NCBI RefSeq assembly: GCF_900142015.1
Contig: NZ_FQZN01000005.1
Coordinates: 124,001-188,000, forward strand
Source of the DNA: Bacteroides stercorirosoris
GTDB lineage: Bacteria > Bacteroidota > Bacteroidia > Bacteroidales > Bacteroidaceae
DNA: 64,000 bases
Direction of reading: 5' to 3'
In this document: positions 33,744 through 61,399 of the stretch, piece by piece
Layout: every line of letters begins with the position of its first letter
Numbering within the stretch: the first letter of the stretch is position 1
Notes under the pieces: model-generated
The model's database searches: none
What the model was told of the DNA's origin: nothing
Seen by the model: only the letters and a program-made list of their open reading frames with translations
Translations under genes and position numbers: made by a program

Positions 33744-34169
33744 TTACTTTGTACTTGCCAGCATCAAAGTTGCATTGGCATCGTTCAATGCGTAAACGCT
33801 CTTTTGGATGTTGCTGTCGTAAGCGTTGCTCTTGGAGTTCCAACGGGCGTAATTTATTGCAATTTCATTGTTACTGTACTCTACATTCATTTTGAAGTAA
33901 GGAACCCAGGCTTCTTTTACGCTGTCCCATTTGGAAGCTTCCTTGCTGGTTACGCGGTTTTCGTTATCGTAAGTATACGTGTAATGGAGGTGGCGGAACA
34001 GGTGACCGTCTTCGTTCTTGAAGATAGTCTTCGCGGTCATCAGTTCACCGGTCATCTCTTCATTCTTTACGTACTGGGTAGGATTACTTGCACTTGCAGA
34101 GAAGTTCATTACACTTGCCATTACTACTACCATCATTATCACTGCTTTAGAAATTAAGTTCGTTTTCAT
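33744..34169 (-). CDS. DUF3836 family secreted protein, sigma-54-type copy 1
   Basis: This 141-residue protein has a signal peptide (MKTNLISKAVIMMVVVMASV, cleavage near SASAS). The mature domain is typical of DUF3836: FRHLHYTYTYDNENRVTSKE, KWDSVKEAWVPYFKM, YSNNEIAINYARWN, ending LMLASTK. Repeated beta-hairpin-like blocks suggest a small all-beta periplasmic or surface protein of unknown function. The ATG at 34169 is chosen because the longer frame from 34262 would run through the promoter and lacks a signal peptide at its start. The gene at 44538 is nearly identical, and the remnant at 35115 is a deleted third copy. A sigma-54-like promoter and TGTCCG dyad lie upstream. Confidence 0.9.
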   Translation of the reverse strand: MKTNLISKAVIMMVVVMASVMNFSASASNPTQYVKNEEMTGELMTAKTIFKNEDGHLFRHLHYTYTYDNENRVTSKEASKWDSVKEAWVPYFKMNVEYSNNEIAINYARWNSKSNAYDSNIQKSVYALNDANATLMLASTK

Positions 34170-34245
34170 AATCGTTATTTTTTTATTGTTATTACTTCTT
34201 GATTTTGGAAAGGAAGTTTTTGTCAACCGCCTTCGACTATATATA

Positions 34246-34261
34246 GTCAATTGCTGTGCCA
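34246..34261 (-). promoter_or_regulatory. Sigma-54-like promoter of DUF3836 copy 1
   Basis: On the minus strand TGGCACAGCAATTGAC keeps the -24 element TGGCAC. The -12 region (TTGA instead of TTGC) has the exact 10-bp spacing between GG and G. Confidence 0.6.
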
Positions 34262-34316
34262 AAACAATAAACCACTGATTATCAACGATTATTCACTTTT
34301 AAGTAGTGTTCATTAA

Positions 34317-44537: not shown

Positions 44538-44963
44538 TTATTTTGTACTTGCCAGCATCAAAGTCGCATTGGTATCGTTCAATTCGTAAACACTTTTTTG
44601 GATGTTGCTGTCGTAAGCGTTGCTCTTGGAGTTCCAACGGGCGTAGTTCACTTCTATTTCATTATTGCTATATTCCATATTCATTTTGAAGTAAGGAACC
44701 CAAGCTTCTTTTACGCTGTCCCATTTGGAAGCTTCCTTGCTGGTTACGCGATTTTCGTTATCGTAAGTATACGTGTAACGGAGGTGGCGGAACAGACGTC
44801 CGTCTTCGTTCTTGAAGATAGTCTTCGCGGTCATCAGTTCACCGGTCATCTCTTCGTTCTTTACGTACTGGGTAGGATTGCTTGCACTTGCAGAGAAGTT
44901 CATTACACTTGCCATAACTACTACCATCATTACCACTGCTTTAGAAATTAAGTTCGTTTTCAT
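44538..44963 (-). CDS. DUF3836 family secreted protein, sigma-54-type copy 3
   Basis: This 141-residue protein is nearly identical to the one at 33744, with the same signal peptide, RYTYTYDNENRVTSKE block, KWDSVKEAWVPYFKM block and LMLASTK end. Differences are few, for example Arg for His in the FRHLRYTYT block. The start at 44963 follows the paralog. Its sigma-54-like promoter (45040-45055) has the best -24 of the three copies (TGGCACG). It diverges from a sigma factor gene with a shared upstream dyad. High identity and a similar flank suggest recent duplication within this region. Function is unknown. Confidence 0.9.
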   Translation of the reverse strand: MKTNLISKAVVMMVVVMASVMNFSASASNPTQYVKNEEMTGELMTAKTIFKNEDGRLFRHLRYTYTYDNENRVTSKEASKWDSVKEAWVPYFKMNMEYSNNEIEVNYARWNSKSNAYDSNIQKSVYELNDTNATLMLASTK

Positions 44964-45039
44964 AATCGTTATTTTTTTATTGTTATTACTTCTTGGTTTT
45001 TGAAGGGAAGTCTTTGTCAACCGCCTTCGACAATATATA

Positions 45040-45055
45040 GTCAATTGCCGTGCCA
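45040..45055 (-). promoter_or_regulatory. Sigma-54-like promoter of DUF3836 copy 3
   Basis: The minus strand reads TGGCACGGCAATTGAC, a complete -24 element with a near-consensus -12. Confidence 0.65.
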
Positions 45056-45110
45056 AAACAATAAAACATTGATTATCAGCGGATATTCATTTTCAGAGAG
45101 TGTTCATAAA

Positions 45111-45221: not shown

Positions 45222-45902
45222 ATGCAACCGGACTTAAAGGAAATCGTAGAACAATATGGCGTCATGGTATCTTCCATAGCACACCGCATGATACAAAACA
45301 AGGAAATCGCTAAAGAAGCGGCTCAGGAAGTCTGGTACGAAATCATCAAAAGCATAGACTCGTTCAACGGGGAATCCGGGTTATCGACATGGATATACAC
45401 AATATGCAAACGCACCATACTGCGATATGCCCGGAACGAAAGAATAGCCACAATGAATGAGTTGAGAGAATTTCGCGAACTTCCTGCCATTGATTATAAC
45501 GGGCAGGACCGGAACGAACAGGAATGGATAAAAGCATGCTGCGACTGGTGTCTGACAGCCCAGAACCATTGCCTGACGAACGATGCCCGGCTGATATTCA
45601 TATTCAAAATAAACCTCAACCTGCCGTACAAGCAAATCAGTGAAATCATGGGCATGACGGAAGAGAGCGTCCGTCAGATTTCCTCCCGTTCCATCCGGAA
45701 GATTACTCATTTTATGAATGACACCTGTCCACTATACAACCCGCAGGGAACCTGCAAATGCCGGATATGCAAGCAAGTCACCTCGCTCAATCTGGAGAAA
45801 GAATATACCGCCATAAAGAAGATTATCCGCCTCGTCGACGTTTACCAACGGCTCGAAAAGGAACTTCCCAGAAAGAACTACTGGGAAAAATTTATTCCCT
45901 GA
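45222..45902 (+). CDS. ECF-type RNA polymerase sigma factor with Cys cluster
   Basis: This 226-residue protein has a region-2-like N terminus (AHRMIQNKEIAKEAAQEVWYEI, GLSTWIYTICKRTI) and a region-4-like helix-turn-helix (LPYKQISEIMGMTEESVRQISSR). It continues with a C-terminal Cys group (CPLYNPQGTCKCRIC) that could bind a metal or sense redox. It is longer than most ECF factors (about 170-190 residues) because of this tail. No anti-sigma gene is adjacent, so the tail may control activity. It shares its upstream region with a DUF3836 gene and could belong to the same response. Confidence 0.85.
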   Translation: MQPDLKEIVEQYGVMVSSIAHRMIQNKEIAKEAAQEVWYEIIKSIDSFNGESGLSTWIYTICKRTILRYARNERIATMNELREFRELPAIDYNGQDRNEQEWIKACCDWCLTAQNHCLTNDARLIFIFKINLNLPYKQISEIMGMTEESVRQISSRSIRKITHFMNDTCPLYNPQGTCKCRICKQVTSLNLEKEYTAIKKIIRLVDVYQRLEKELPRKNYWEKFIP

Positions 45903-51152: not shown

Positions 51153-51854
51153 TCATTCTTCCAGCATCAGCCCCACACCTTTCACCGTTTTAATGCTGAC
51201 TGATGAATCTTCAGCTATCAACTTACGGAGTTTTGTGACGAATACATCCAGGCTGCGGGAAGCAAAATAATCATCTTCCGTATTCCAGAACTTATCAAGA
51301 ATGGCTTCACGACGTACTACATCCCCTCTGTTCTCACAAAGCATTTGCAACAGTCCTGCTTCACGGGCGGTCAATGTCTTGTTTTCACCGGATGCATGTT
51401 TCAATATGGCGTGCGTAGCATCAAGCACATATTCCTTTCCAATCTTGTAACATTCGCTTTCGTCCTTACTCTTTTCACCTTTGGAGAGTTTCAACAAAGC
51501 ATGAATATGAGCATCCAGTTCTTCGGGAATGAAAGGTTTCTTGATATAATTGTTGGCTCCCAACTCATAGCCTTTCAATACATTTTTGGGAGAAACCAAA
51601 CCGGAAGAAAAGATTATAGGCGTCTCTTTATCCACCTCACGGATGCGCTTCACCATCTCATAACCATCCATGACGGGCATTTCTATATCCGAGAGAATGA
51701 CATCGGGACGATGCTCCCTCCACATTGCCAATCCTTCTTCACCATTGGCAGCTGCCAACACCTCATAGCCCTCTATGATATCTTCCAATCCGCTCTGAAC
51801 GATGTAACGCAGGCTGGGATCGTCCTCAACTAACAATAACTTTATTGTATCCAT
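51153..51854 (-). CDS. OmpR/PhoB-family response regulator
   Basis: This 233-residue protein has a receiver domain with Asp56 in VILSDIEMPVMDG, the conserved acidic pair EDD at residues 10-12 and Lys in YIKKPF, followed by a winged-helix DNA-binding domain (LTAREAGLLQMLCENRG, SRSLDVFVTKLRKL, IKTVKGVGLML). It resembles the Bacteroides RprY type. It is the only response regulator in the 51-61 kb cluster, so it is the likely partner of both kinases (53021 and 58485). The operator repeat at 51915-51950, shared with three DUF3836 genes, stands before its own promoter, indicating autoregulation. Confidence 0.93.
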   Translation of the reverse strand: MDTIKLLLVEDDPSLRYIVQSGLEDIIEGYEVLAAANGEEGLAMWREHRPDVILSDIEMPVMDGYEMVKRIREVDKETPIIFSSGLVSPKNVLKGYELGANNYIKKPFIPEELDAHIHALLKLSKGEKSKDESECYKIGKEYVLDATHAILKHASGENKTLTAREAGLLQMLCENRGDVVRREAILDKFWNTEDDYFASRSLDVFVTKLRKLIAEDSSVSIKTVKGVGLMLEE

Positions 51855-51894: not shown

Positions 51895-51902
51895 CAAAAG
51901 TA
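51895..51902 (-). promoter_or_regulatory. -7 box of the response regulator gene
   Basis: The minus strand reads TACTTTTG, and the shared operator begins 12 bp upstream. Confidence 0.65.
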
Positions 51903-51914
51903 ATAAATTATTCG

Positions 51915-51950
51915 TTAACCCGAAGATAACATTGCGATATCATTCATTCT
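51915..51950. promoter_or_regulatory. Shared operator, response regulator copy (inverse orientation)
   Basis: TTAACCCGAAGATAACATT followed by GCGATATCATTCATTCT matches the operator at 55501, 57929 and 60811 with about six differences in 36 bp. It contains two GATAACATT-like units, 11 bp apart. It is read here from the opposite side, so the site serves either orientation. Confidence 0.75.
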
Positions 51951-52056
51951 TATGCTAATTATCGCAAGCATGCTCTTCACAATAGGATATGCACAACAGA
52001 CTTGCACAACTGGCACATCTCAATGATCCGGTACATATCAAGAAAGATTTAGGAAA

Positions 52057-52917
52057 TCATTTTATCGGAAATGAAAACTTTGGCGGTCTAATCGTAGGGC
52101 CTCCACCAAAGTCACCGCCGCCGCGTTTATCAAACACCACGTTGCGCAGAATCTCGTACATTATTCCTCCTACATCCAGTCCCAGCTTAAACTTCTCGAA
52201 GCGGTAATAGGGTATCACAACGGGAACCGTCTGCCAACCTCCACGCATGGCATCGTAATAACGCTGGGCACCGACCTCCACACCAAAGCGCTCGGACATA
52301 TCAAGAGACATCGTAGCACCATAACTATTAGTGCTCATCCCGTAAGAATTACCGATATCATACGAACCGAAGACATTGAAGGCAACCCGGTCGGAAGCAC
52401 GATAAGTCAGCCTGCCCGCAGTACTGAAGGCTTGCCCGGTGATGTGAGACATATTTATCTTCATGGCATTGGCACGAAGTTGCAATGATAGCCGATCATT
52501 AAAGATATGCTGATATCCTAACGAAGCATTATTGAAACGCCCGATGCCCGGAAGACTGGTCTGACTCCCGGAGCCGAATACCGCTCCATGGGGAAATTGC
52601 CTTAATACGCCTCCCGTACTATAATCGCCCCGGAATAGCGGAGAAGGATTTATATGATAAGGTATACGGAGTTCCTCTTTCAAGGAGAAAGAAGGCAAAT
52701 CACCTAACTGTATAGGATTTATCAAAGGATATACGGTTTTTTCGGGAAGCAGGTTGACGGATGGAAGCTGAAATGTAGCTTTCGGCTTTATCAATAGGCT
52801 GTCAAGAGTGAAGCGTACACCATCTTCCTGTGCAGAAAGCAACTGCAAACCAGAAATGAACAGAAAAAATAATCCCCAACGAATTGGGAGCCAAGATATG
52901 CCAACCCTGCGTGTCAT
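52057..52917 (-). CDS. Secreted outer-membrane-type beta-barrel protein
   Basis: This 286-residue protein has a signal peptide (about 1-29, ending LLSAQ). The mature part alternates polar and aromatic residues (RLTYRASDRVAFNVFGSYDIG, YGATMSLDMSERFGVEVGAQRYY), typical of outer-membrane strands. It lies between the kinase at 53021 and the response regulator at 51153 in the same direction, with its own -7 box at 52953-52960. It could be a target or accessory of that signalling pair. Family is not recognised. Confidence 0.7.
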   Translation of the reverse strand: MTRRVGISWLPIRWGLFFLFISGLQLLSAQEDGVRFTLDSLLIKPKATFQLPSVNLLPEKTVYPLINPIQLGDLPSFSLKEELRIPYHINPSPLFRGDYSTGGVLRQFPHGAVFGSGSQTSLPGIGRFNNASLGYQHIFNDRLSLQLRANAMKINMSHITGQAFSTAGRLTYRASDRVAFNVFGSYDIGNSYGMSTNSYGATMSLDMSERFGVEVGAQRYYDAMRGGWQTVPVVIPYYRFEKFKLGLDVGGIMYEILRNVVFDKRGGGDFGGGPTIRPPKFSFPIK

Positions 52918-52952
52918 AATCCACCTCCTTTGTTTTTTACGGACTCTGTATA

Positions 52953-52960
52953 CAAAAATA
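52953..52960 (-). promoter_or_regulatory. -7 box of the beta-barrel gene
   Basis: The minus strand reads TATTTTTG. No copy of the shared operator is found upstream. Confidence 0.5.
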
Positions 52961-53020
52961 GCAAAACCCTATCTGAATAACAAATAGTTGGGCACATTTC
53001 ATCTTTACCAGCAGGCTTTT

Positions 53021-55279
53021 TTAACGCAAGGGGAATTGTAGCGTAAATTCACTGTAACTCCCTTCCACACTTTCTACCTTCACCATACCGCCGTGGGCAC
53101 TCACCACCTGCAACACATAATTCAATCCTAACCCGAAACCTGATGCACCCGTCTTACGACTGCCGGAAGCAATCCTCTCGAACTTATTGAATATCTTATG
53201 TTGTTCGCTCAAAGGAATGCCAATACCGTTATCATGCACTCTGACAATGATCCCATCCTCTGTCTTTGTACCTGAAAGAACGATCAGAACCTCTTCATTA
53301 GAGTACTTGACGGCATTGTCCACCAGATTGGAAAGTATCTCACGCAGACAGAAAGCATCCGCATAAACACTACATCCTTCTTCACAATCAATATCAAAAT
53401 GAACCGTCTTCGCCGCTTTCAACTGATACTTTTCCGCTATATCCCGCAGCAACGGTCTTAGGACAACTTCTTCTTTATGTAGTTCCAATTCTCCACGGTC
53501 TATCTCTGTCAGCATTACTACACGATTGGAAAGTGTCAGCAGATGTTCGCACTCATCCCCCATCACTTGCCTGTAACGGGCCAGTTTCTCCGGTTTATCC
53601 GCCAACTTACCACCTGCCAGGATATGCGCTCCCATCATGACAGACTGCAACGGTGACTTCATATCATGTATCATGGAGTAAGTAAAGTCCTTCTGAAACT
53701 GCTCCAACCGACGCTGTGCCCGCAACATACGTATCTGAAAGAAAACACAGAGAGATACGAAAAGGAAAGCAATAAGCAGCGGCACCTGCATATACCATGT
53801 GGCACTCATAATAGTACGTTGTGGTGAACGAACCACAGCAAAGATGCAGCTCGTACTATCCTTATCCAACGGAAACAACCGGGTAGTGATATCCCCGAAG
53901 TCAATAGCCGGACTACCTGTATAAAGTATCAACTCCCGGGACGGATATCTGATCCAATGGATATCCGCCCTATCCGGAAAACCTGTTTCCAAAAGCTGTT
54001 TTCTGAACACACTGTCGGCAAACTGCAAGGAAAACGGAATAGGCACACGGCTACGCAGACTGATCGTATCCTGTATATCATAAGCCGTCTTCATACGGAA
54101 GCCTTCATCAAACTTATTGTAAAGATGCCGAATGGTAAGCAACTGTATTCGGTAGCGATAACCTTTCTCCAGATATACCTTATAAAGCTCGTCCATCATA
54201 CGCAGCGGATAAGGGAGAAATTCTCCCGGCGAGCTATCCCAATTAAAATCAGGGTTAGCCTTAGTGAAAAGCGGATATCTATGTAAGTCTGCCTCCCGGT
54301 AGAAAGCCTCTTCCAATTGCTCCTCCGCCTGATACCGTATCTTTTGAGAGGTCGTGTAATACAAATATCCTGACCAGACAGCCAGCAACAGGAATACTCC
54401 CGCCAAGCTGACCATAGAAATTGCTTTAAGAGAAATAGGCCTGCCCGTACTTCTTTGCCGGATTTCTGCTTTGGCATGTGTCAGAGTAGCATTGGTTCTC
54501 TCAAAGAGTACGTTGCTTTGTGCCTCTATCTCTTGCCAGTTTTCTGTGGTTATCAAGTTCTTCATCCGGCTGACGGGATGTTTCATTTCTTCGACCAACG
54601 TATAGAAGTCCTGTTGTTGTTTCTGCAAGTCATGCCGTTGGCGGAATACCGACTTCATCTGTACAATCAAGGCATAGACAGCCGTACCCAGCAATAGCCA
54701 TGTAATGAATGACAGTAGCAGGAGTCTCTTCTCCATCTCCTTGGCAGGGAAAGAAAGAATGGCACGGACAGCCTCCCCACGGGATTTAAAGGTGAAAGCT
54801 GTTTCGGAAGTAACAGCGGCAAAGTTACGGTTACTTACCTGAGGATTGGTAGTTGCCAGCACCTCATTTGTATTTACATTAATGCGCTCCACGGTCAGCG
54901 TTCCATCCATGTCTAACTTCCGCAACTTATTGTGCAACACGCTATCTATGGTGGCCAACGGAATTTCTTTTATTCCATACACCCGTTGCAAAGCCTGTGC
55001 CGCCTGCTGGGAAGTACGCTTATTCCTTTCATCCCCATCTATCCGCTTGTATTTAGGATTGGGTGCATACGCTATGATAGCTATTGAATTATCAGGATAA
55101 GGAAGGTTGTTCACCAGATTATCCACTGTCTCCGTGAAAGACATCCAGAAGCACTTGTTCAGTGATTTCTCCGCTTCCTGCATCTGTGCATGAAAAGCAT
55201 AAAGCATTCCGCCCAACTGTATTAACACAACAGCAATCAGACTCACCAGTGAAAGAGAGATGACAGTACGTAATTTCAT
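53021..55279 (-). CDS. Sensor histidine kinase 1 with duplicated sensor and pseudo-DHp
   Basis: This 752-residue membrane kinase has four membrane helices (about 7-29, 185-207, 287-308 and 505-525) that create two periplasmic sensor regions. The C-terminal core has HisKA with His538 in MIHDMKSPLQS and a HATPase domain (LSNLVDNAVKYS, GFGLGLNYVLQVV). The cytoplasmic stretch between helices 2 and 3 contains QQDFYTLVEEMKHPVSRM, which aligns with the true FQKDFTYSMIHDMKSPLQS, but with Glu230 in place of the phospho-acceptor His. So the N-terminal half looks like a duplicated sensor plus inactive dimerization helix. It is encoded before the beta-barrel and response regulator genes, and is divergent from a DUF3836 gene. 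Confidence 0.9.
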   Translation of the reverse strand: MKLRTVISLSLVSLIAVVLIQLGGMLYAFHAQMQEAEKSLNKCFWMSFTETVDNLVNNLPYPDNSIAIIAYAPNPKYKRIDGDERNKRTSQQAAQALQRVYGIKEIPLATIDSVLHNKLRKLDMDGTLTVERINVNTNEVLATTNPQVSNRNFAAVTSETAFTFKSRGEAVRAILSFPAKEMEKRLLLLSFITWLLLGTAVYALIVQMKSVFRQRHDLQKQQQDFYTLVEEMKHPVSRMKNLITTENWQEIEAQSNVLFERTNATLTHAKAEIRQRSTGRPISLKAISMVSLAGVFLLLAVWSGYLYYTTSQKIRYQAEEQLEEAFYREADLHRYPLFTKANPDFNWDSSPGEFLPYPLRMMDELYKVYLEKGYRYRIQLLTIRHLYNKFDEGFRMKTAYDIQDTISLRSRVPIPFSLQFADSVFRKQLLETGFPDRADIHWIRYPSRELILYTGSPAIDFGDITTRLFPLDKDSTSCIFAVVRSPQRTIMSATWYMQVPLLIAFLFVSLCVFFQIRMLRAQRRLEQFQKDFTYSMIHDMKSPLQSVMMGAHILAGGKLADKPEKLARYRQVMGDECEHLLTLSNRVVMLTEIDRGELELHKEEVVLRPLLRDIAEKYQLKAAKTVHFDIDCEEGCSVYADAFCLREILSNLVDNAVKYSNEEVLIVLSGTKTEDGIIVRVHDNGIGIPLSEQHKIFNKFERIASGSRKTGASGFGLGLNYVLQVVSAHGGMVKVESVEGSYSEFTLQFPLR

Positions 55280-55301
55280 CTTATCCGTTTATATTCGCCT
55301 G

Positions 55302-55309
55302 CAAAAATA
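55302..55309 (-). promoter_or_regulatory. -7 box of histidine kinase 1
   Basis: The minus strand reads TATTTTTG, 23 bp before the start codon. Unlike kinase 2, no operator copy is adjacent. Confidence 0.5.
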
Positions 55310-55500
55310 GCAAATAACTATGGATCACGAAGTAATGCACTACTTTTTATATCGGACGAGAATGCGTTCGTTCCAGCCAATGGCAAGGCATGATGAAAAG
55401 AAACGAACGGAAATCAGCATCTTACTGATTAAAAGAGGAATATAAAAATACATACAACTCTAAAAAAACAAGAGAGCTCTCCAGAGTCGCAAAAGTGTCG

Positions 55501-55536
55501 TTAACCTAACGATAACATTACGATAACATTCATCCT
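55501..55536. promoter_or_regulatory. Shared operator, DUF3836 copy A
   Basis: TTAACCTAACGATAACATT then ACGATAACATTCATCCT: the 11-mer ACGATAACATT is repeated in tandem, one helical turn apart. It ends 13 bp before the -7 box. This is the layout of an OmpR-type regulator binding as two subunits. Confidence 0.8.
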
Positions 55537-55549
55537 CATGCCCCTGCCC

Positions 55550-55557
55550 TATCTTTG
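55550..55557 (+). promoter_or_regulatory. -7 box of DUF3836 copy A
   Basis: TATCTTTG is identical in position and flanks in copies B and C. The operator takes the place of a -33 element, so activation by the regulator is expected. Confidence 0.75.
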
Positions 55558-55603
55558 CAACATCAAAAGTAACGAAATATATAACTTAAAAAATAAAACG
55601 ATT

Positions 55604-56029
55604 ATGAAAGCTTTAGTATTATCAGTAGTATTCGCATTGACAGCAGTAGTAAACGCAGTAAGTGGTAATAGCATAAAAGACTTCGCCTACAACAGTGAGA
55701 AACAGGAAAACGGTGTAGAAACCCAGACAGTCTACAAAGTAAAAGAAGGCAAGTACCTGGAACGCCACCTGCAATACAACTACACACGTGATGAAAAAGG
55801 ACGTGTATCAGCCAAGGAAATCCTGAAATGGAACCAGGACAACAGCCGCTTTGAAAAGCAGTATTGCCTCAACTTCAGCTACACCGACAACGAAGTAAGC
55901 GTGGAATATGTAGCATGGAGCAGCAAAGCCGGTGATTATACAAATGTGAAAGCCAAAGCCGTTTATCAGACGAATGAAAATGGCATGAATTACATGGCTT
56001 ATAACCGGAATGAGAAGGGTAACCTCTAA
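55604..56029 (+). CDS. DUF3836 family secreted protein, operator-type copy A
   Basis: This 141-residue protein has a signal peptide (MKALVLSVVFALTAVVNAVS) and a mature DUF3836 domain: VYKVKEGKYLERHLQYNYT, DEKGRVSAKEILKWN, FEKQYCLNFSYTDNEVSVEY. It differs clearly from the sigma-54-type copies (33744, 44538) but has the same layout. Compared with copies B and C it stops early (NRNEKGNL instead of NWNEKNNSWNL), so the last 13-20 residues are missing. The ATG at 55604 is used; the in-frame ATG at 55538 lies upstream of the -7 box and cannot be on the mRNA. Function unknown. Confidence 0.9.
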   Translation: MKALVLSVVFALTAVVNAVSGNSIKDFAYNSEKQENGVETQTVYKVKEGKYLERHLQYNYTRDEKGRVSAKEILKWNQDNSRFEKQYCLNFSYTDNEVSVEYVAWSSKAGDYTNVKAKAVYQTNENGMNYMAYNRNEKGNL

Positions 56030-56060
56030 CGATAAACGCCCTCTTTTAAATTCCTAAAGA

Positions 56061-56100
56061 AATGCGGCTACCGGAAAAGCAATTTTCCGATAGCCGCATT
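56061..56100. terminator. Bidirectional terminator between DUF3836 copy A and the gene at 56108
   Basis: AATGCGGCTACCGGAAAA pairs with TTTTCCGATAGCCGCATT with one mismatch and a 4-base loop. Confidence 0.8.
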
Positions 56101-56107
56101 CTTTGAT

Positions 56108-56818
56108 TTATCCAATATACAATTCGGAGGGAATCAGTTTAAAATCCACAAATTGGTTCTCTACCGGATTGGCCTTCAACAAGAAAGGAACGATGCCGTC
56201 CGAAGGAAGCGCTTTGCGCGGAAGAGCCGATTGCTTATCGAATTTATAAGTAGCACACCAGGCATCGGCATCACCAGATACACTCCTGCCGATACGGAAA
56301 CAGAACTCACTCTCGCTATCGCGCAACGTATTAATCAGCTTGCGGCAATCATCCGGCACAGTAGGGCTATCTGACAATTCGCTGATCTTTTCTGCCATTT
56401 GCGATAACCATTCCACATCGTGAATGTGCTTCTTGTCGAGGGCAAAAACAAACACTGCCGGATAGTAATCGTTATCTCCCGGTCTCCACAAGGCACTGTT
56501 GGCCTGCACCACTGCTGCATATACGACGGGAGACTCTGTATATTTCTTCTTCCAGCGATCCTTGAACAACCAGGGAGCATTGCCTGCCACTGCCCTGAAG
56601 AAGGGAGTTTCCATATCCCGGGGTGTTTGCAGATAAGGTTTCAGCCTATCCAGACGAGTAGGATTATCGAAAGTTTCCTCTCCTTCTTCATCATCTTCCG
56701 GCACGGAGGGCCTGTTACGCAGTCCGTTTACGTCACACCCTTGCGCTTCCAGTTTCGCAATATCTTCTTCTGTCAGGTTATTCTCCCAGTCTTTGCCGGG
56801 GTTCACAAAAAATGCCAT
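56108..56818 (-). CDS. Cytoplasmic protein of unknown function
   Basis: This 236-residue protein has no signal peptide. It has an acidic N-terminal third (PEDDEEGEETFDN) and a globular remainder (PVVYAAVVQANSALWRPGDNDYYPAVFVFALD). No family is recognised. It lies between two DUF3836 genes on the opposite strand. The 1.1 kb upstream holds a truncated paralog leader, repeats and a 22-bp array, and no obvious promoter close to the gene. Confidence 0.7.
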   Translation of the reverse strand: MAFFVNPGKDWENNLTEEDIAKLEAQGCDVNGLRNRPSVPEDDEEGEETFDNPTRLDRLKPYLQTPRDMETPFFRAVAGNAPWLFKDRWKKKYTESPVVYAAVVQANSALWRPGDNDYYPAVFVFALDKKHIHDVEWLSQMAEKISELSDSPTVPDDCRKLINTLRDSESEFCFRIGRSVSGDADAWCATYKFDKQSALPRKALPSDGIVPFLLKANPVENQFVDFKLIPSELYIG

Positions 56819-56898
56819 AATAATTCTAGTTTAAGAGTTAATATTCTGTCAAATAGTTAATATAATAAATGCATATTGGTTAAGTCTCGATTCATCCG

Positions 56899-56964
56899 CT
56901 ACCTGACAAGCAAGAAACACAATAAGCCTATCCTGATATAAAGAAGAATTCCCTGGTTTTCCAT
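56899..56964 (-). pseudogene. Truncated duplicate of the 5' end of the gene at 50109
   Basis: The minus strand starts MENQ, as the gene at 50675 does, then diverges into GILLYIRIGLLCFLLVR and stops. The upstream sequence to about 57135, including a TACTTTTG -7 box (57128-57135), is recognisably similar to the leader of 50675. This looks like the promoter and first codons of a lost paralog. Confidence 0.55.
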
Positions 56965-57310
56965 AATTTTACTTTCTGATATAGATTAATAGTAGTTCCA
57001 TCGCAGCTGCCAAGGAGACTGTTACAAAAATAAGAAGATACCCATGAACCGGAAAACAAACAGGGGGGATAAATGAGAAGGGAGTTTAACTTCATAAAAA
57101 TCTGTTTTTCAACCCGTTATTATCCAGCAAAAGTAAGAGCAAAGGGGATATTTTCAATTTCCAAAAGAAACAGCAGGCGTTTTAAAGGAAAAAAACAAAG
57201 AATTCCGACCTTAATCATTCAAAGTTCTTGATTTCACAAAAGCCTGAAGGTTATGATTATTACAAGTGAGTTATTGGCGGAATTAGTTCCTTTTTGTAAC
57301 GGTTATGATG

Positions 57311-57401
57311 CACCACAGATTACACAGATTTACACAGATTAGGAAAGATATCTCTGATTATTAATAAATTAAATCTGTGCTAATCTGTGTAATCTGTGGT
57401 G
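57311..57401. repeat. 91-bp dispersed palindromic repeat, copy 2
   Basis: It is nearly identical to the reverse complement of 28827-28917. Similarity extends about 18 bp further on one side (AAATAATTC-TTTCTG). It lies in a non-coding stretch. Confidence 0.85.
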
Positions 57402-57433
57402 AAATAATTCCTTTCTGTACTGTTATGAATATA

Positions 57434-57494
57434 TTTTAGACACGGATTACACTGTTGTTTTTATATACTACAACAGTGTAATCCGTGTCTAAAA
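57434..57494. repeat. Perfect 25-bp inverted repeat
   Basis: Arms 57434-57458 and 57470-57494 are exact complements (TTTTAGACACGGATTACACT and on) with an 11-base loop. CACGGATTACAC recalls the preceding CACAGATT repeat, so it may be a related element. Confidence 0.8.
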
Positions 57495-57647
57495 TCTCAT
57501 TTATCATTTGATTCATTACTATACCCAATGAATCAATTCCGCCAACAGGTCACAAGTAGGATAAGAAGAGTGATAACCCACTGTAAATAAACCCCGTACC
57601 TACTTCTTCAGTAAAGTATAATTAATCAAATATCATTCCGTTATGAA

Positions 57648-57806
57648 GAAACGTAAGTCTCACTTTATCGGAACATTTGTCTCCTTACTATGAGACATCC
57701 GTTTCTTCCCTAAGAAACTTTTGTTCCTTGCCTGTGGAACAAGAGTTTCACAGGCAAGGAACAAAAGTTTCAATAGGGAGAAACAAAACAGAACAAATAG
57801 AGGCAC
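57648..57806. repeat. 22-bp-period array of GRRAC-N4-GTYYC dyads
   Basis: Six consecutive 14-bp dyads start at 57648, 57670, 57692, 57714, 57736 and 57758. All are of the form G[AG][AG]AC-N4-GT[CT][CT]C (for example GGAACAAAAGTTTC) and are separated by 8-bp spacers. Two further left half-sites follow at 57780 and 57802 in the same phase. The array is about 120 bp upstream of the next operator and shows no coding potential. Confidence 0.88.
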
Positions 57807-57928
57807 GACAAAGCACCTATGTCTCCCTCCCCAGCCACAAGGAAAGACGTAATCTCACGACTATACCTCCCGCTTGACAACAAGCTTATTTGCAGAATTC
57901 CACCATCGGATTAAGAAACTCTTTTTAT

Positions 57929-57964
57929 TAACCTAACGATAACATTACGATAACATTCATCCTC
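57929..57964. promoter_or_regulatory. Shared operator, DUF3836 copy B
   Basis: It is identical to 55501-55536 and again ends 13 bp before the -7 box TATCTTTG at 57978-57985. Confidence 0.8.
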
Positions 57965-57977
57965 ATGCCCCTGCCCT

Positions 57978-57985
57978 ATCTTTGC
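57978..57985 (+). promoter_or_regulatory. -7 box of DUF3836 copy B
   Basis: TATCTTTG, with the same flanks as copy A. Confidence 0.75.
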
Positions 57986-58030
57986 AACATCAAAAGTAAC
58001 GAAATGTATAACTTAAAAAATAAAACGATT

Positions 58031-58495
58031 ATGAAAGCTTTAGTATTATCAGTAGTATTCGCATTGACATCAGTAGTAAACGCAGTAAGTGGTAACAATG
58101 TAAAAGACTTCGCCTACAACAGTGAGAAACAGGAAAACGGGATAGAAACCCAGACAGTCTACAAAGTAAAAGAAGGCAAGTACCTGGAACGCCACCTGCA
58201 ATACAACTACACACATGATGAAAAAGGACGTGTATCAGCAAAGGAAATTCTGAAATGGAACCAGGACAACAGCCGCTTTGAAAAGCAGTATTGCCTCAAC
58301 TTCAGCTACACCGACAACGAAGTAAACGTGGAATATGTAGCATGGAACAATAAAATCGGTGACTATACAGACGTAAAAGCCAAAGCTGTTTACCAGACGA
58401 ACGAACAGGGAGTAAACTACACTGCCTACAACTGGGATAAAAAGGAAAACGCCTGGAACCTAACCGTAGGACAAGATAACCGCTTTACTCTCTAA
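58031..58495 (+). CDS. DUF3836 family secreted protein, operator-type copy B
   Basis: This 154-residue protein is nearly identical to copy A up to YTDNEV, then differs, and has a longer C terminus (AYNWDKKENAWNLTVGQDNRF). Signal peptide and start (58031) as in copy A. Its last 11 bp overlap the end of the convergent kinase 2 gene, so the two stop codons are interleaved and the two transcripts must overlap. The 5' leader and first codons are almost the same as in copies A and C, which indicates recent duplication or gene conversion. Confidence 0.9.
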   Translation: MKALVLSVVFALTSVVNAVSGNNVKDFAYNSEKQENGIETQTVYKVKEGKYLERHLQYNYTHDEKGRVSAKEILKWNQDNSRFEKQYCLNFSYTDNEVNVEYVAWNNKIGDYTDVKAKAVYQTNEQGVNYTAYNWDKKENAWNLTVGQDNRFTL

Positions 58496-60770
58496 CCGGA
58501 AAATAAAGCGTGAACTCACTGAAACGCCCTTCTTCGCTCTCTACTTCCACCCGACCCTCATGCGCTAACATCACTTGCTGCACATAGTTCAGTCCCAGAC
58601 CGAAGCCCGTAGCTCCTCCCTTACTGCTGCGGGCAGCAGCGACCGAACGCTCAAAACGGTTGAAAATACGTGCAAGGTCTTTCACAGGAATACCCAAGCC
58701 ATTATCACAGATTTTAATCTTGCTGAAACCTTTCTCCGACTCACAGATGATATCAATCTTTACTTCGTCACGGGAGTATTTTATTGCATTATCCAGAAGA
58801 TTACTCAGCACTTCACGCAGGCAGAAAGCATCTGCATAAACAGTTTCACAACGATGATAGAGGGTATTGAACTCTATTTTCTTACCGGCTTTCAGTAATA
58901 TTTTAGCTGTTAAATCGTCAATCAACGGGCATAAGGGAACCTCTTCAATATTCAGTTGCAAATGTCCCTTATCCAGTTGTGTCAAAAGCAATACCCTATC
59001 GGATAAAGCCAACAAATGTTCACACTCTTCCGTCATGACTTGCTTATATTTCTGTTCTTTCTCCGGTTTGTTAGCCAGTTTACCACTTGCCAGACTATGC
59101 GCTCCCATCAATATAGAGTTTAGTGGAGACTTCATATCATGAACCATAGCATACGTAAAATCCTTCTGGAACTGCTTCAAACGATACTGCATATAAAGTA
59201 AATGTATTTGGAAGATGACACATACACATACAAACAGAAAAAGTATTCCCAAGGGCACCAGCAAATACCAAATGGAAGAAAAGATATGTTTGGTAGTTGA
59301 GGATACCACACCTTCAATGAAAACGGTGCTGTCCTTATTCAAAGCAATCATATTCGTTCTTAAATCAAGTATACCCGGAAAAGGATTTCCCGTATAAATC
59401 ATCAATTCCTCAGACGGATAACGACACATACGGATGCCAGCATCGGTTGGCATCCGGTGTTCTTCCAGAAACTGTATAAATAAAGAGTCTGCATAGTGCA
59501 AAGAGAAAGGAATGGGTACCTTACTATAAGTATCTATTGCATTCTGGTTGTTATAACCATAATACGCATTATCGCTTATCTCAGACTTTTCACGAATATC
59601 CTCAGTACCAACATGTACATGAGTAGCAACCAGAGCTATTTTCTTCTCACGCATAAAGGCATTCAATGCCAGTCTTTGCCTTTCATAATAGGGAGAAAAT
59701 ATCATGGTATCTGACTTTTCCGCTTTTTCTAAGTAATATCCATTAATTTGCCGATAAAGTTTCATCCGACGGATAGTTTCGTTGTAAAACATATTGTCGA
59801 AACAATCATTGACCACCTGTGCCATCTTCTTCCGATTATCCTGATACAGATAGCCTGTCCATATCAATAACAATACTAAAGCACTCAATAAAGCGATTAA
59901 AGGCAGAACTTTCAATGAAAAATATTTCTTCTTTTCTTTTTGCGCCTCCAATTTAGCTTTAAGAAGAGTCTGTTCCGTTCCATTCAATAAACGGACACTC
60001 TGCTCTTCTATCCTACTCCACTCCGATCCGGGGATATCCGAAAGAAGATCTGTAACAGGAGACTTCATACGCTCTGCCAACGTATAAAAACTGTTTCGTT
60101 GTTCTTCAATATTATGATGCTGAAAGTTAATAGAACGTATTTGTTTTACAAATGCGAACACCACTATCCCCAATGCCAAAGATGTACCCAAAAACAACAG
60201 TAAAATCTTACGTATTCCCCACAAAAAAGGAGTCTGGAGTACAGCTTCTACAGCTATTCCTTTCTCCTTATTTATAAATGCGCGTCTAGAAGTGAACACG
60301 CCAATGCCTGCCGACGCATACGGTTGCGTAAATTCCAAATCTTCCCCTGTTTCTGTCTTAAATTTACGGATAGTAATTTTTCCCTCAACGGACTTTTTTT
60401 GTAATTTACAAGTTAACAAAGTATCCAGGGTAACTAAAGGAAGTTCTTCAGCATGATACACTTTTTGTAAAATCACTGATGTTTGTTGAGCAAAATAAAG
60501 AGTCATTTCATTTTTAGACTCCTTCATCTTTTTGCTCAGATACATGCTATAAGGCATGAAATTCATATGAGTAACAGTTCCTACCGCCAAAGGTAAAGAA
60601 TTTACCTGCCCACCTATCCCCTCAACAAAAGATTGTTCAAAGCAGTCATCCAAGATGGCTTGGGTCTCTTTTACATGATCACAATAAGCACGATATATGC
60701 CTACACCTTGCAAAAGAAATATGAGCAACAAAACAACAATTGAAAAGGAAACAAGTATCCGTACTTTCAT
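58485..60770 (-). CDS. Sensor histidine kinase 2 with duplicated sensor and pseudo-DHp
   Basis: This 761-residue paralog of the kinase at 53021 has the same four membrane helices and two periplasmic regions. The active core has His544 in MVHDMKSPLNSILMG and a HATPase domain (LSNLLDNAIKYS, GFGLGLNYVQQVM). Between helices 2 and 3, QRNSFYTLAERMKSPVTDLL repeats the histidine-motif region but has Glu233 where His would be, as in kinase 1. It probably signals to the response regulator at 51153. The gene is flanked by DUF3836 genes on both sides: convergent with copy B and divergent from copy C, with a shared operator. Confidence 0.9.
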   Translation of the reverse strand: MKVRILVSFSIVVLLLIFLLQGVGIYRAYCDHVKETQAILDDCFEQSFVEGIGGQVNSLPLAVGTVTHMNFMPYSMYLSKKMKESKNEMTLYFAQQTSVILQKVYHAEELPLVTLDTLLTCKLQKKSVEGKITIRKFKTETGEDLEFTQPYASAGIGVFTSRRAFINKEKGIAVEAVLQTPFLWGIRKILLLFLGTSLALGIVVFAFVKQIRSINFQHHNIEEQRNSFYTLAERMKSPVTDLLSDIPGSEWSRIEEQSVRLLNGTEQTLLKAKLEAQKEKKKYFSLKVLPLIALLSALVLLLIWTGYLYQDNRKKMAQVVNDCFDNMFYNETIRRMKLYRQINGYYLEKAEKSDTMIFSPYYERQRLALNAFMREKKIALVATHVHVGTEDIREKSEISDNAYYGYNNQNAIDTYSKVPIPFSLHYADSLFIQFLEEHRMPTDAGIRMCRYPSEELMIYTGNPFPGILDLRTNMIALNKDSTVFIEGVVSSTTKHIFSSIWYLLVPLGILFLFVCVCVIFQIHLLYMQYRLKQFQKDFTYAMVHDMKSPLNSILMGAHSLASGKLANKPEKEQKYKQVMTEECEHLLALSDRVLLLTQLDKGHLQLNIEEVPLCPLIDDLTAKILLKAGKKIEFNTLYHRCETVYADAFCLREVLSNLLDNAIKYSRDEVKIDIICESEKGFSKIKICDNGLGIPVKDLARIFNRFERSVAAARSSKGGATGFGLGLNYVQQVMLAHEGRVEVESEEGRFSEFTLYFPVRE

Positions 60771-60789
60771 TATGCATTTATTTTGGCTG

Positions 60790-60797
60790 CAAAGGTA
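60790..60797 (-). promoter_or_regulatory. -7 box of histidine kinase 2
   Basis: The minus strand reads TACCTTTG. The operator starts 13 bp upstream, the same distance as for the DUF3836 promoters. Confidence 0.65.
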
Positions 60798-60810
60798 ACA
60801 AATTATTCTA

Positions 60811-60846
60811 TTAACCTAACGATAACATTACGATAACATTCATCCT
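60811..60846. promoter_or_regulatory. Shared operator between kinase 2 and DUF3836 copy C
   Basis: It is identical to the copies at 55501 and 57929. It sits exactly 13 bp from a -7 box on each side, so one site can serve both divergent genes. Confidence 0.82.
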
Positions 60847-60859
60847 CATGCCCCTGCCC

Positions 60860-60867
60860 TATCTTTG
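60860..60867 (+). promoter_or_regulatory. -7 box of DUF3836 copy C
   Basis: TATCTTTG, 13 bp after the operator. Confidence 0.75.
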
Positions 60868-60913: not shown

Positions 60914-61399
60914 ATGAAAGCTTTAGTATTATCAGTAGTATTCGCATTAACAGCAGTAGTAAACGCAGTAAGTGGTAACAATGTAAAAGACTTCGCCTAC
61001 AACAGTGAGAAACAGGAAAACGGGGTAGAAACCCAGACAGTCTACAAAGTAAAAGAAGGCAAGTACCTGGAACGCCACCTGCAATACAACTACACACATG
61101 ATGAAAAAGGACGTGTATCAGCCAAGGAAATCCTGAAATGGAACCAGGACAACAGCCGCTTTGAAAAGCAGTATTGCCTCAACTTCAACTACACCGACAA
61201 CGAAGTAAACGTGGAATATGTAGCATGGAACGGCGAAGCCGATGATTACACAAATGTGAAAGCCAAAGCCGTTTATCAGATGAACGAGAATGGCATGAAC
61301 TACATGGCTTACAACTGGAATGAGAAAAACAACTCCTGGAATCTGGTAACAGAACACAATGCAACAAATTGGAACAACGCTTTGCTGGCAAACAGATAA
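60914..61399 (+). CDS. DUF3836 family secreted protein, operator-type copy C
   Basis: This 161-residue protein is the longest of the three operator-type copies, with C terminus NSWNLVTEHNATNWNNALL. Signal peptide and N-terminal domain are nearly the same as in copies A and B. The start at 60914 follows them. It is transcribed away from kinase 2 with a shared operator and ends at a strong hairpin. The three C termini differ more than the N termini, which suggests that the variable end interacts with something specific. Confidence 0.9.
   Translation: MKALVLSVVFALTAVVNAVSGNNVKDFAYNSEKQENGVETQTVYKVKEGKYLERHLQYNYTHDEKGRVSAKEILKWNQDNSRFEKQYCLNFNYTDNEVNVEYVAWNGEADDYTNVKAKAVYQMNENGMNYMAYNWNEKNNSWNLVTEHNATNWNNALLANR

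Follow-up and report, generated by a model that had tools for sequence, protein, structure and literature searches.

The predicted operator element and the genes around it

The window, a 64,000-nucleotide stretch of DNA from Bacteroides stercorirosoris (positions 124001-188000 of contig C58 in a 6.27-Mb genome), carries a repeated promoter element next to genes for DUF3836 proteins, a response regulator (RR) and histidine kinases; sites past the window end are covered by a further stretch, L026. A 36-mer, TTAACCTAACGATAACATTACGATAACATTCATCCT, is present in three identical copies at 55501-55536, 57928-57963 and 60811-60846, and a changed copy with three mismatches to the core lies upstream of the RR gene at 51915-51944. 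All four copies are on the + strand. An earlier, sequence-only reading had proposed them as the operator of a self-regulating two-component system. The identity of the three 36-mers stands, while the second begins at 57928 rather than at 57929, and the 51915 copy has the opposite orientation ascribed to it only with respect to the RR gene. The tandem 11-mer of that reading is likewise present, though not as two units: TTAACCT forms an extra repeat 5' of the two 11-mers, and the element thus comprises three direct 11-bp repeats, TTAACCT-N4-ATAACAT-N4-ATAACWT, which end 22 bp before a TAnnTTTG box. After a gap of 13 bp, each 36-mer is followed by TATCTTTG (55550-55557, 57977-57984 and 60860-60867). 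The copy at 60811 has a second box, CAAAGGTA, on its other side (60790-60797), also 13 bp away, which is the − strand box TACCTTTG of kinase 2. The copy at 51915 has an RR-side box, CAAAAGTA (51895-51902), at a distance of 12 bp; no forward TAnnTTTG was found on its non-RR side within the stretch examined. Measurement therefore agrees with the proposed spacing of 12-13 bp and with the symmetric placement of the 60811 copy.

The three 36-mers precede three DUF3836 genes on the + strand, i.e., gene 1 at 55604-56029 (PF12930, E 2.4e-29, 102.2 bits), gene 2 at 58031-58495 (E 3.1e-30, 105.1 bits) and gene 3 at 60914-61399 (E 7.9e-30, 103.8 bits), all above the gathering cut-off of 25 bits. The presumed regulator of the operator is a 233-residue RR encoded on the − strand (51153-51854), whose receiver (Response_reg, PF00072, E 3.5e-29) and winged helix (Trans_reg_C, PF00486, E 1.6e-17) place it in the OmpR/PhoB family. 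Two histidine kinases are encoded on the − strand as well: kinase 1 (53021-55279, 752 residues, HisKA and HATPase_c) and kinase 2 (58485-60770, 761 residues, with a duplicated sensor module). The 60811 copy is located between kinase 2 and DUF3836 gene 3.

The window copies of the operator form the 5' end of a duplicated unit of promoter and DUF3836 gene. Homology begins at the 5' edge of the operator, as the 60 bp upstream are 25-37% identical, the operator 100% and the gene 94-95%. Since the identity of the three 36-mers is part of a recent duplication, it is no independent evidence of selection. It might even have arisen merely because promoter and DUF3836 gene were recently duplicated or underwent gene conversion, with no special regulation behind it, which would fit the 96-99% likeness of the three copies over 300 nt and the start of homology at the operator edge. 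We regard this as highly improbable, because the same repeats with the same 22-bp spacing are found in other genera and before unrelated genes.

Distribution of the site and of the response regulator

A scan of the whole genome with the pattern MGATAACATTNMGATANCATT at up to one mismatch yielded six matches, all located within the 17 kb of C58:175924-192980, and none for the reversed control. At up to three mismatches, 17 matches were obtained versus three for the control; the 11 added matches comprise two register shifts within the cluster and nine sites elsewhere in the genome. A promoter-level pattern (three repeats, 22 bp and TAnnTTTG; up to two mismatches) gave five matches, all in the cluster, with none for the control. 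The genome scan proposed in the sequence-only reading thus confines close matches to one 17-kb cluster, beyond what is expected by chance. The six cluster sites adjoin one RR, two kinases, four DUF3836 genes and one DUF3267 gene. Two of the six lie past the window end and add members to the regulon as first drawn: the site at L026:2885 precedes a 54-residue open reading frame (ORF) and the DUF3267 gene, and the site at L026:5952 lies between kinase 3 (L026:3686-5911, 741 residues) and a fourth operator-bearing DUF3836 gene. The 54-residue ORF (L026:2961-3125), between operator and DUF3267 gene, is hydrophobic.

Conservation was assessed in 81 sources, namely the window, L026 and 79 RR loci chosen by RR similarity. 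The element is also found close to relatives of the RR in Prevotella, Mediterranea, Parabacteroides and Phocaeicola. With up to five mismatches, the core had 83 matches in these sources and the reversed core none, and in 72 of the 83 TAnnTTTG starts exactly 22 bp past the core. The consensus of 73 non-redundant sites consists of three WTAACNT units, one per 11 bp, followed by TAcCTTTG. A general pattern of this form (three units of WTAACNT-N4, then 22 bp and TAnnTTTG), searched with up to two mismatches, detected a site in 61 of 80 sources (the 79 RR loci and the window); 64 sites were perfect, and the reversed control was zero. The core was present within 250 nt upstream of 44 of the 53 DUF3836 genes counted, many of them from close relatives, and the box lay at exactly +22 in all 44. 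For comparison, 47 of 1067 other ORFs in the same sources had the core and 34 had core and box (Fisher 2e-48); some of these are probably regulon members. DUF3836 genes of either branch of the family were present in the available flanks of 40 of the 79 RR loci. Eighteen divergent DUF3836/kinase pairs were listed, and 16 of the printed regions show the repeats; for the other two (L082 and L101), the printed stretch started at a mis-set kinase start, and the core scan finds the site in both. Given the cross-genus sites, the 44 of 53 DUF3836 genes and the zero control of the general pattern, we reject chance or duplication as the sole cause.

We further surveyed 249 genomes of the family, with the site defined by the strict promoter pattern (up to three mismatches) and the RR by E ≤ 1e-75. 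The site was detected in 35 genomes and the RR in 49; both occurred in 33, only the site in two and only the RR in 16. The operator is hence found in 33 of 49 RR-bearing genomes versus two of the 200 RR-less ones (Fisher 1e-26). In a sample of 198 genomes from across the order, the own genome among them, two carried the pattern with up to two mismatches. The tracking of the RR by the site, together with the sites before 44 of 53 DUF3836 genes, lends partial support to the regulon of RR, operator and DUF3836 genes that had been proposed from the sequence. Judging from these comparisons of sequence, the triple 11-bp repeat is likely the operator of the RR at 51153-51854, which would activate these promoters and regulate itself and two kinases.

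Several points weigh against this interpretation. The Fisher tests ignore phylogeny, and the strict pattern is absent from 16 of the 49 RR genomes, as is the general pattern from 19 of the 80 sources, all of them RR loci. Many of the RR loci are close relatives picked by RR similarity, and the sites were gathered by pattern, so that conservation at the specified positions is partly built in. Boxes on the opposite side, facing RR or kinase genes, are less uniform, with none in 51 of 83 cases and varying distances in the rest. Scoring of the RR covered at most 11 candidates per genome at E 1e-75; "without RR" is thus to be read as lacking a close RR. Of the two site-only genomes, G461 has a best RR match of 36% identity. 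In the other, G473, the sites have broken RR-like frames of 51-58% identity close by. These frames with stops (G473:C124:29038-29723) perhaps reflect a decayed circuit or a sequencing error.

The case of G461 would also fit binding of the operator by another OmpR/PhoB-type regulator, be it RprY, PhoB or another paralogue, and as RprY is the best NCBIfam match of our RR, their DNA specificities may be similar. The gene rprY has been reported from B. fragilis and other Bacteroidetes (PMC6032018). In the 200 genomes without a close RR, which were not scanned for RprY or PhoB, the site is nevertheless absent from 198, and we consider another regulator improbable. In its own genome, the RR is the only match at E ≤ 1e-60, the next relative being 43% identical.

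The response regulator, the kinases and the predicted mode of control

The best segment of the RR is 99% identical to RRs of Bacteroides timonensis and B. cellulosilyticus, which places the genome in the clade of these species. RprY (NF051850) was matched with 182.6 bits, far below the cut-off of 370 bits, and an RprY equivalog is therefore ruled out; the same distance separates the RR from the RprXY system of B. fragilis and RprY of Porphyromonas gingivalis, although RprY is its best NCBIfam match. OmpR/PhoB-type proteins are established as binding tandem 11-bp repeats, as at the PhoB box. The system described here resembles this type in combining receiver and winged helix with tandem 11-bp direct repeats that closely precede the −7 box, but differs in the repeat sequence, the number of three repeats, the TAnnTTTG box and the DUF3836 output. 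Neither of the two RprY papers searched (PMC3646045 and PMC6032018) contains the words motif, consensus, binding site or direct repeat. Likewise, neither the regulon nor the core word in a fitting context is described in the openly licensed literature searched (including PMC9308784, PMC10352776 and PMC6671954), in line with the sequence-only reading, which knew of no such arrangement. The RR subfamily, its operator and its DUF3836 output thus appear to be undescribed, whereas two-component systems and direct-repeat operators are known kinds. The operator motif offers a genome-searchable marker of the predicted regulon in Bacteroidales.

We propose that the phosphorylated RR binds the three direct repeats and, once bound, would activate the promoter, in which TAnnTTTG begins 22 bp beyond the third repeat. 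The promoter consensus has a −33 box, and the third repeat occupies its position; therefore, the RR probably replaces this promoter contact. Only nine of the 73 non-redundant sites have a TTTG in the interval 14-28 nt upstream of the box. Activation is suited by the −33 position of the third repeat and by the lack of TTTG in the other 64. Repression of these promoters by the RR would have a precedent in a relative, RprY of P. gingivalis, which PMC6032018 describes as a repressor. Repeats that occupy the −33 position and end 22 bp upstream of the −7 box, in promoters mostly devoid of TTTG in the interval 14-28 nt upstream of the box, suit an activator without proving one, and we hold repression to be unlikely. 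In its own genome, the activator would act on four DUF3836 genes and the unit of the 54-residue ORF and DUF3267. Operators between divergent genes probably also control the RR and kinases 2 and 3, which would close a feedback loop of either sign. Autoregulation is suited by the box positions, i.e., 13 bp on either side at 60811, 12 bp on the RR side at 51915 and, as read by eye, 13 bp on the kinase side at L026:5952. The sequence-only reading had placed a kinase under the operator; for kinase 2 the site is indeed divergently placed, whereas kinase 1, whose TAnnTTTG box and the closest operator are some 190 bp apart (also read by eye), lacks the shared-promoter geometry.

Kinases 1-3 share only 28-41% identity in their sensors and 68-81% in their dimerization and histidine phosphotransfer (DHp) domains. 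The similar DHp domains, the diverged sensors and the single close RR suggest several inputs to one output, and the three kinases would probably all feed this RR by phosphotransfer. The RR gene is directly preceded by a kinase gene in 71 of 79 RR loci; the separation of the two in the window is therefore probably derived. That each DUF3836 protein is a private ligand of its adjacent kinase was considered and is weakened by the near-identity of genes 1-3 next to kinase sensors of 28-41% identity. The kinases of 741-761 residues show an internal duplication, in which transmembrane (TM) segment, sensor, TM segment and helices without the histidine are followed by TM segment, sensor, TM segment, DHp and catalytic domain. 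The tandem sensor modules are reflected by alignment of the two halves (probability 98.5%, E 2.5e-15) and of the sensors alone (95.4%), while the DHp-like helices alone align weakly (34%). The second helical segment contains HDMKSP, and no histidine occupies this place in the first. A structure model (mean pLDDT 74.4, pTM 0.52) was used for the helix layout only.

In the CpxP-CpxRA system, the genes for a small exported protein and the kinase are divergent and share a control region. A comparable layout is found at the 60811 site, at L026:5952 and in the 18 divergent DUF3836/kinase pairs, with export suggested by an N-terminal helix. However, DUF3836 lacks a CpxP/Spy match at E ≤ 0.001 in Pfam, where only DUF3836 was matched, and its model is made of beta strands.

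Regulon content, a plasmid version and the DUF3836 proteins

Among the 73 non-redundant sites (<80% identity), the following gene encodes DUF3836 in 19 cases, DUF3267-like proteins in eight, M16 in seven, TolC, HlyD and CPBP-like proteins in five each, a GG-leader peptide in four and other products in 20. The 152 raw sites gave 63 DUF3836, 15 DUF3267-like, 12 M16, nine HlyD, seven TolC, seven CPBP-like, six GG-leader and 33 other genes. The non-redundant set is the safer base, as the raw set includes same-genome copies (L032/L214, L043/L234, L066/L210, L068/L244, L070/L245, L078/L246 and L100/L243) and one site twice (L219/L220). Forty stretches were taken from genomes with the site; G421, G465, single contigs of G422, G434, G283, G452 and G471, and G435, a probable twin of L040, were left out. 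The M16, HlyD, TolC, CPBP-like and GG-leader labels denote sequence motifs, and Pfam/NCBIfam scans were applied to representatives only, in which Pfam identified Peptidase_M16, Rce1-like, OEP, TraB, Band_7, YbjQ, DUF3267 and DUF5694. DUF3836 as the main output, as first proposed, therefore holds for the own genome; elsewhere, other genes follow the sites. M16 and CAAX-type peptidases, DUF3267-like proteins and the bacteriocin-type peptide and exporter of a plasmid suggest an envelope or peptide role.

PF11667 (DUF3267) is matched by the L026 protein and not by that of L221, and none of the 15 DUF3267-like entries under a site, which include two pairs of copies, contains HExxH, the motif of S2P-type proteases. 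The unit of 54-residue ORF and DUF3267 recalls the pairing of membrane peptide and DUF3267 in TMcin as described in PMC13252029, but the DUF3267 proteins here lack HExxH. An active leader protease as in TMcin is consequently unsupported.

Class II bacteriocin three-component loci, with histidine kinase, RR, GG-type peptide and exporter, provide a further comparison. The plasmid pBACSA02 (L252, NC_015168.1) of Phocaeicola salanitronis DSM 18170 encodes a kinase, an RR, a bacteriocin-type signal sequence, a CAAX endopeptidase, HlyD, a peptidase-domain ABC exporter, TolC and DUF3836, and carries five operator sites on 19.3 kb (three perfect, two with one mismatch; controls zero). It has been typed as mobilizable. 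The plasmid is like the class II loci in kinase, RR, GG-type peptide, peptidase-domain exporter, HlyD and CAAX protease, but its exporter is paired with TolC. Through this version, the circuit is linked to bacteriocin-type secretion, a connection that is amenable to testing in a type strain. Related GG-type peptides lie under a site in L228, L236, L241 and L248.

This gene set with its five sites, and the peptides of the four other stretches, would be expected if the circuit were mainly a peptide-signalling or bacteriocin regulon that had lost its peptide genes here, leaving DUF3836 as an accessory, e.g., an immunity or feedback protein. We regard this as possible but doubtful, since the six cluster sites showed no such peptide and none was so labelled downstream of the first 83 core matches, and since the three scanned peptides gave weak NCBIfam matches for a GG leader (E 0.0004-0.03, one above the curated cut-off). 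A rather speculative extension concerns peptide signalling or signalling in envelope antagonism: the kinases might sense a peptide or the envelope damage it causes, the RR would act via the triple operator, and DUF3836 would be a secreted partner that binds the peptide or acts as feedback ligand of a kinase. The module occurs both on chromosomes and on a plasmid; some lineages have the peptides and the exporter, while others have a reduced form with DUF3836 and DUF3267.

DUF3836 proteins are probably exported or secreted, judging from the N-terminal helix of a structure model (mean pLDDT 81.5), which combines this low-confidence helix with nine beta strands and is nearly all-beta. In Foldseek, the model matched the solved DUF3836 structures 3MSW (BF3112), 4R8O (BVU_1206) and 4R03 (BDI_3222), and nothing beyond these three at E ≤ 0.001. 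They share family and fold with the proteins described here, but their entry titles name no function, and none was found in the openly licensed literature searched. With one DUF3836 branch tied to a defined operator and its likely regulator, there is a handle on the timing of production and on partners. The nine DUF3836 genes without a site (8-11 mismatches to the core), including 33744-34262 and 44538-45056 in the window, all lie to the same side of a single branch (support 88/21; one label change versus a shuffled mean of 8.5; long branches). DUF3836 as such was rejected as a regulon marker, as PF12930 occurs in 111 of 249 genomes (107 above cut-off) and the RR in 49, and nine of 53 genes are site-less. 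The operator-less gene at 44538-45056 is divergent from a gene for an extracytoplasmic function sigma factor (45222-45902), a possible second control of the family.

Further features of the window were noted as well. Between kinase 1 and the RR, a 286-residue protein without Pfam or NCBIfam match at E ≤ 0.001 is encoded on the − strand (52057-52917). The 51915 site is part of a 103-bp segment that is 99% identical to B. timonensis L029, and it faces the remnant of a divergent DUF5694 gene (51946-52066, + strand), of which tblastn recovers two pieces, 18 and 22 residues long. In L029, the counterpart is a 272-residue open frame assigned to DUF5694 by Pfam, and a site of the 51915 type lies between it and the RR gene. 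The gap before DUF3836 gene 2 contains, at 57261-57784, several inverted repeats (26-40 nt), among them CACCACAGATTACACAGATTTACACAGATT.

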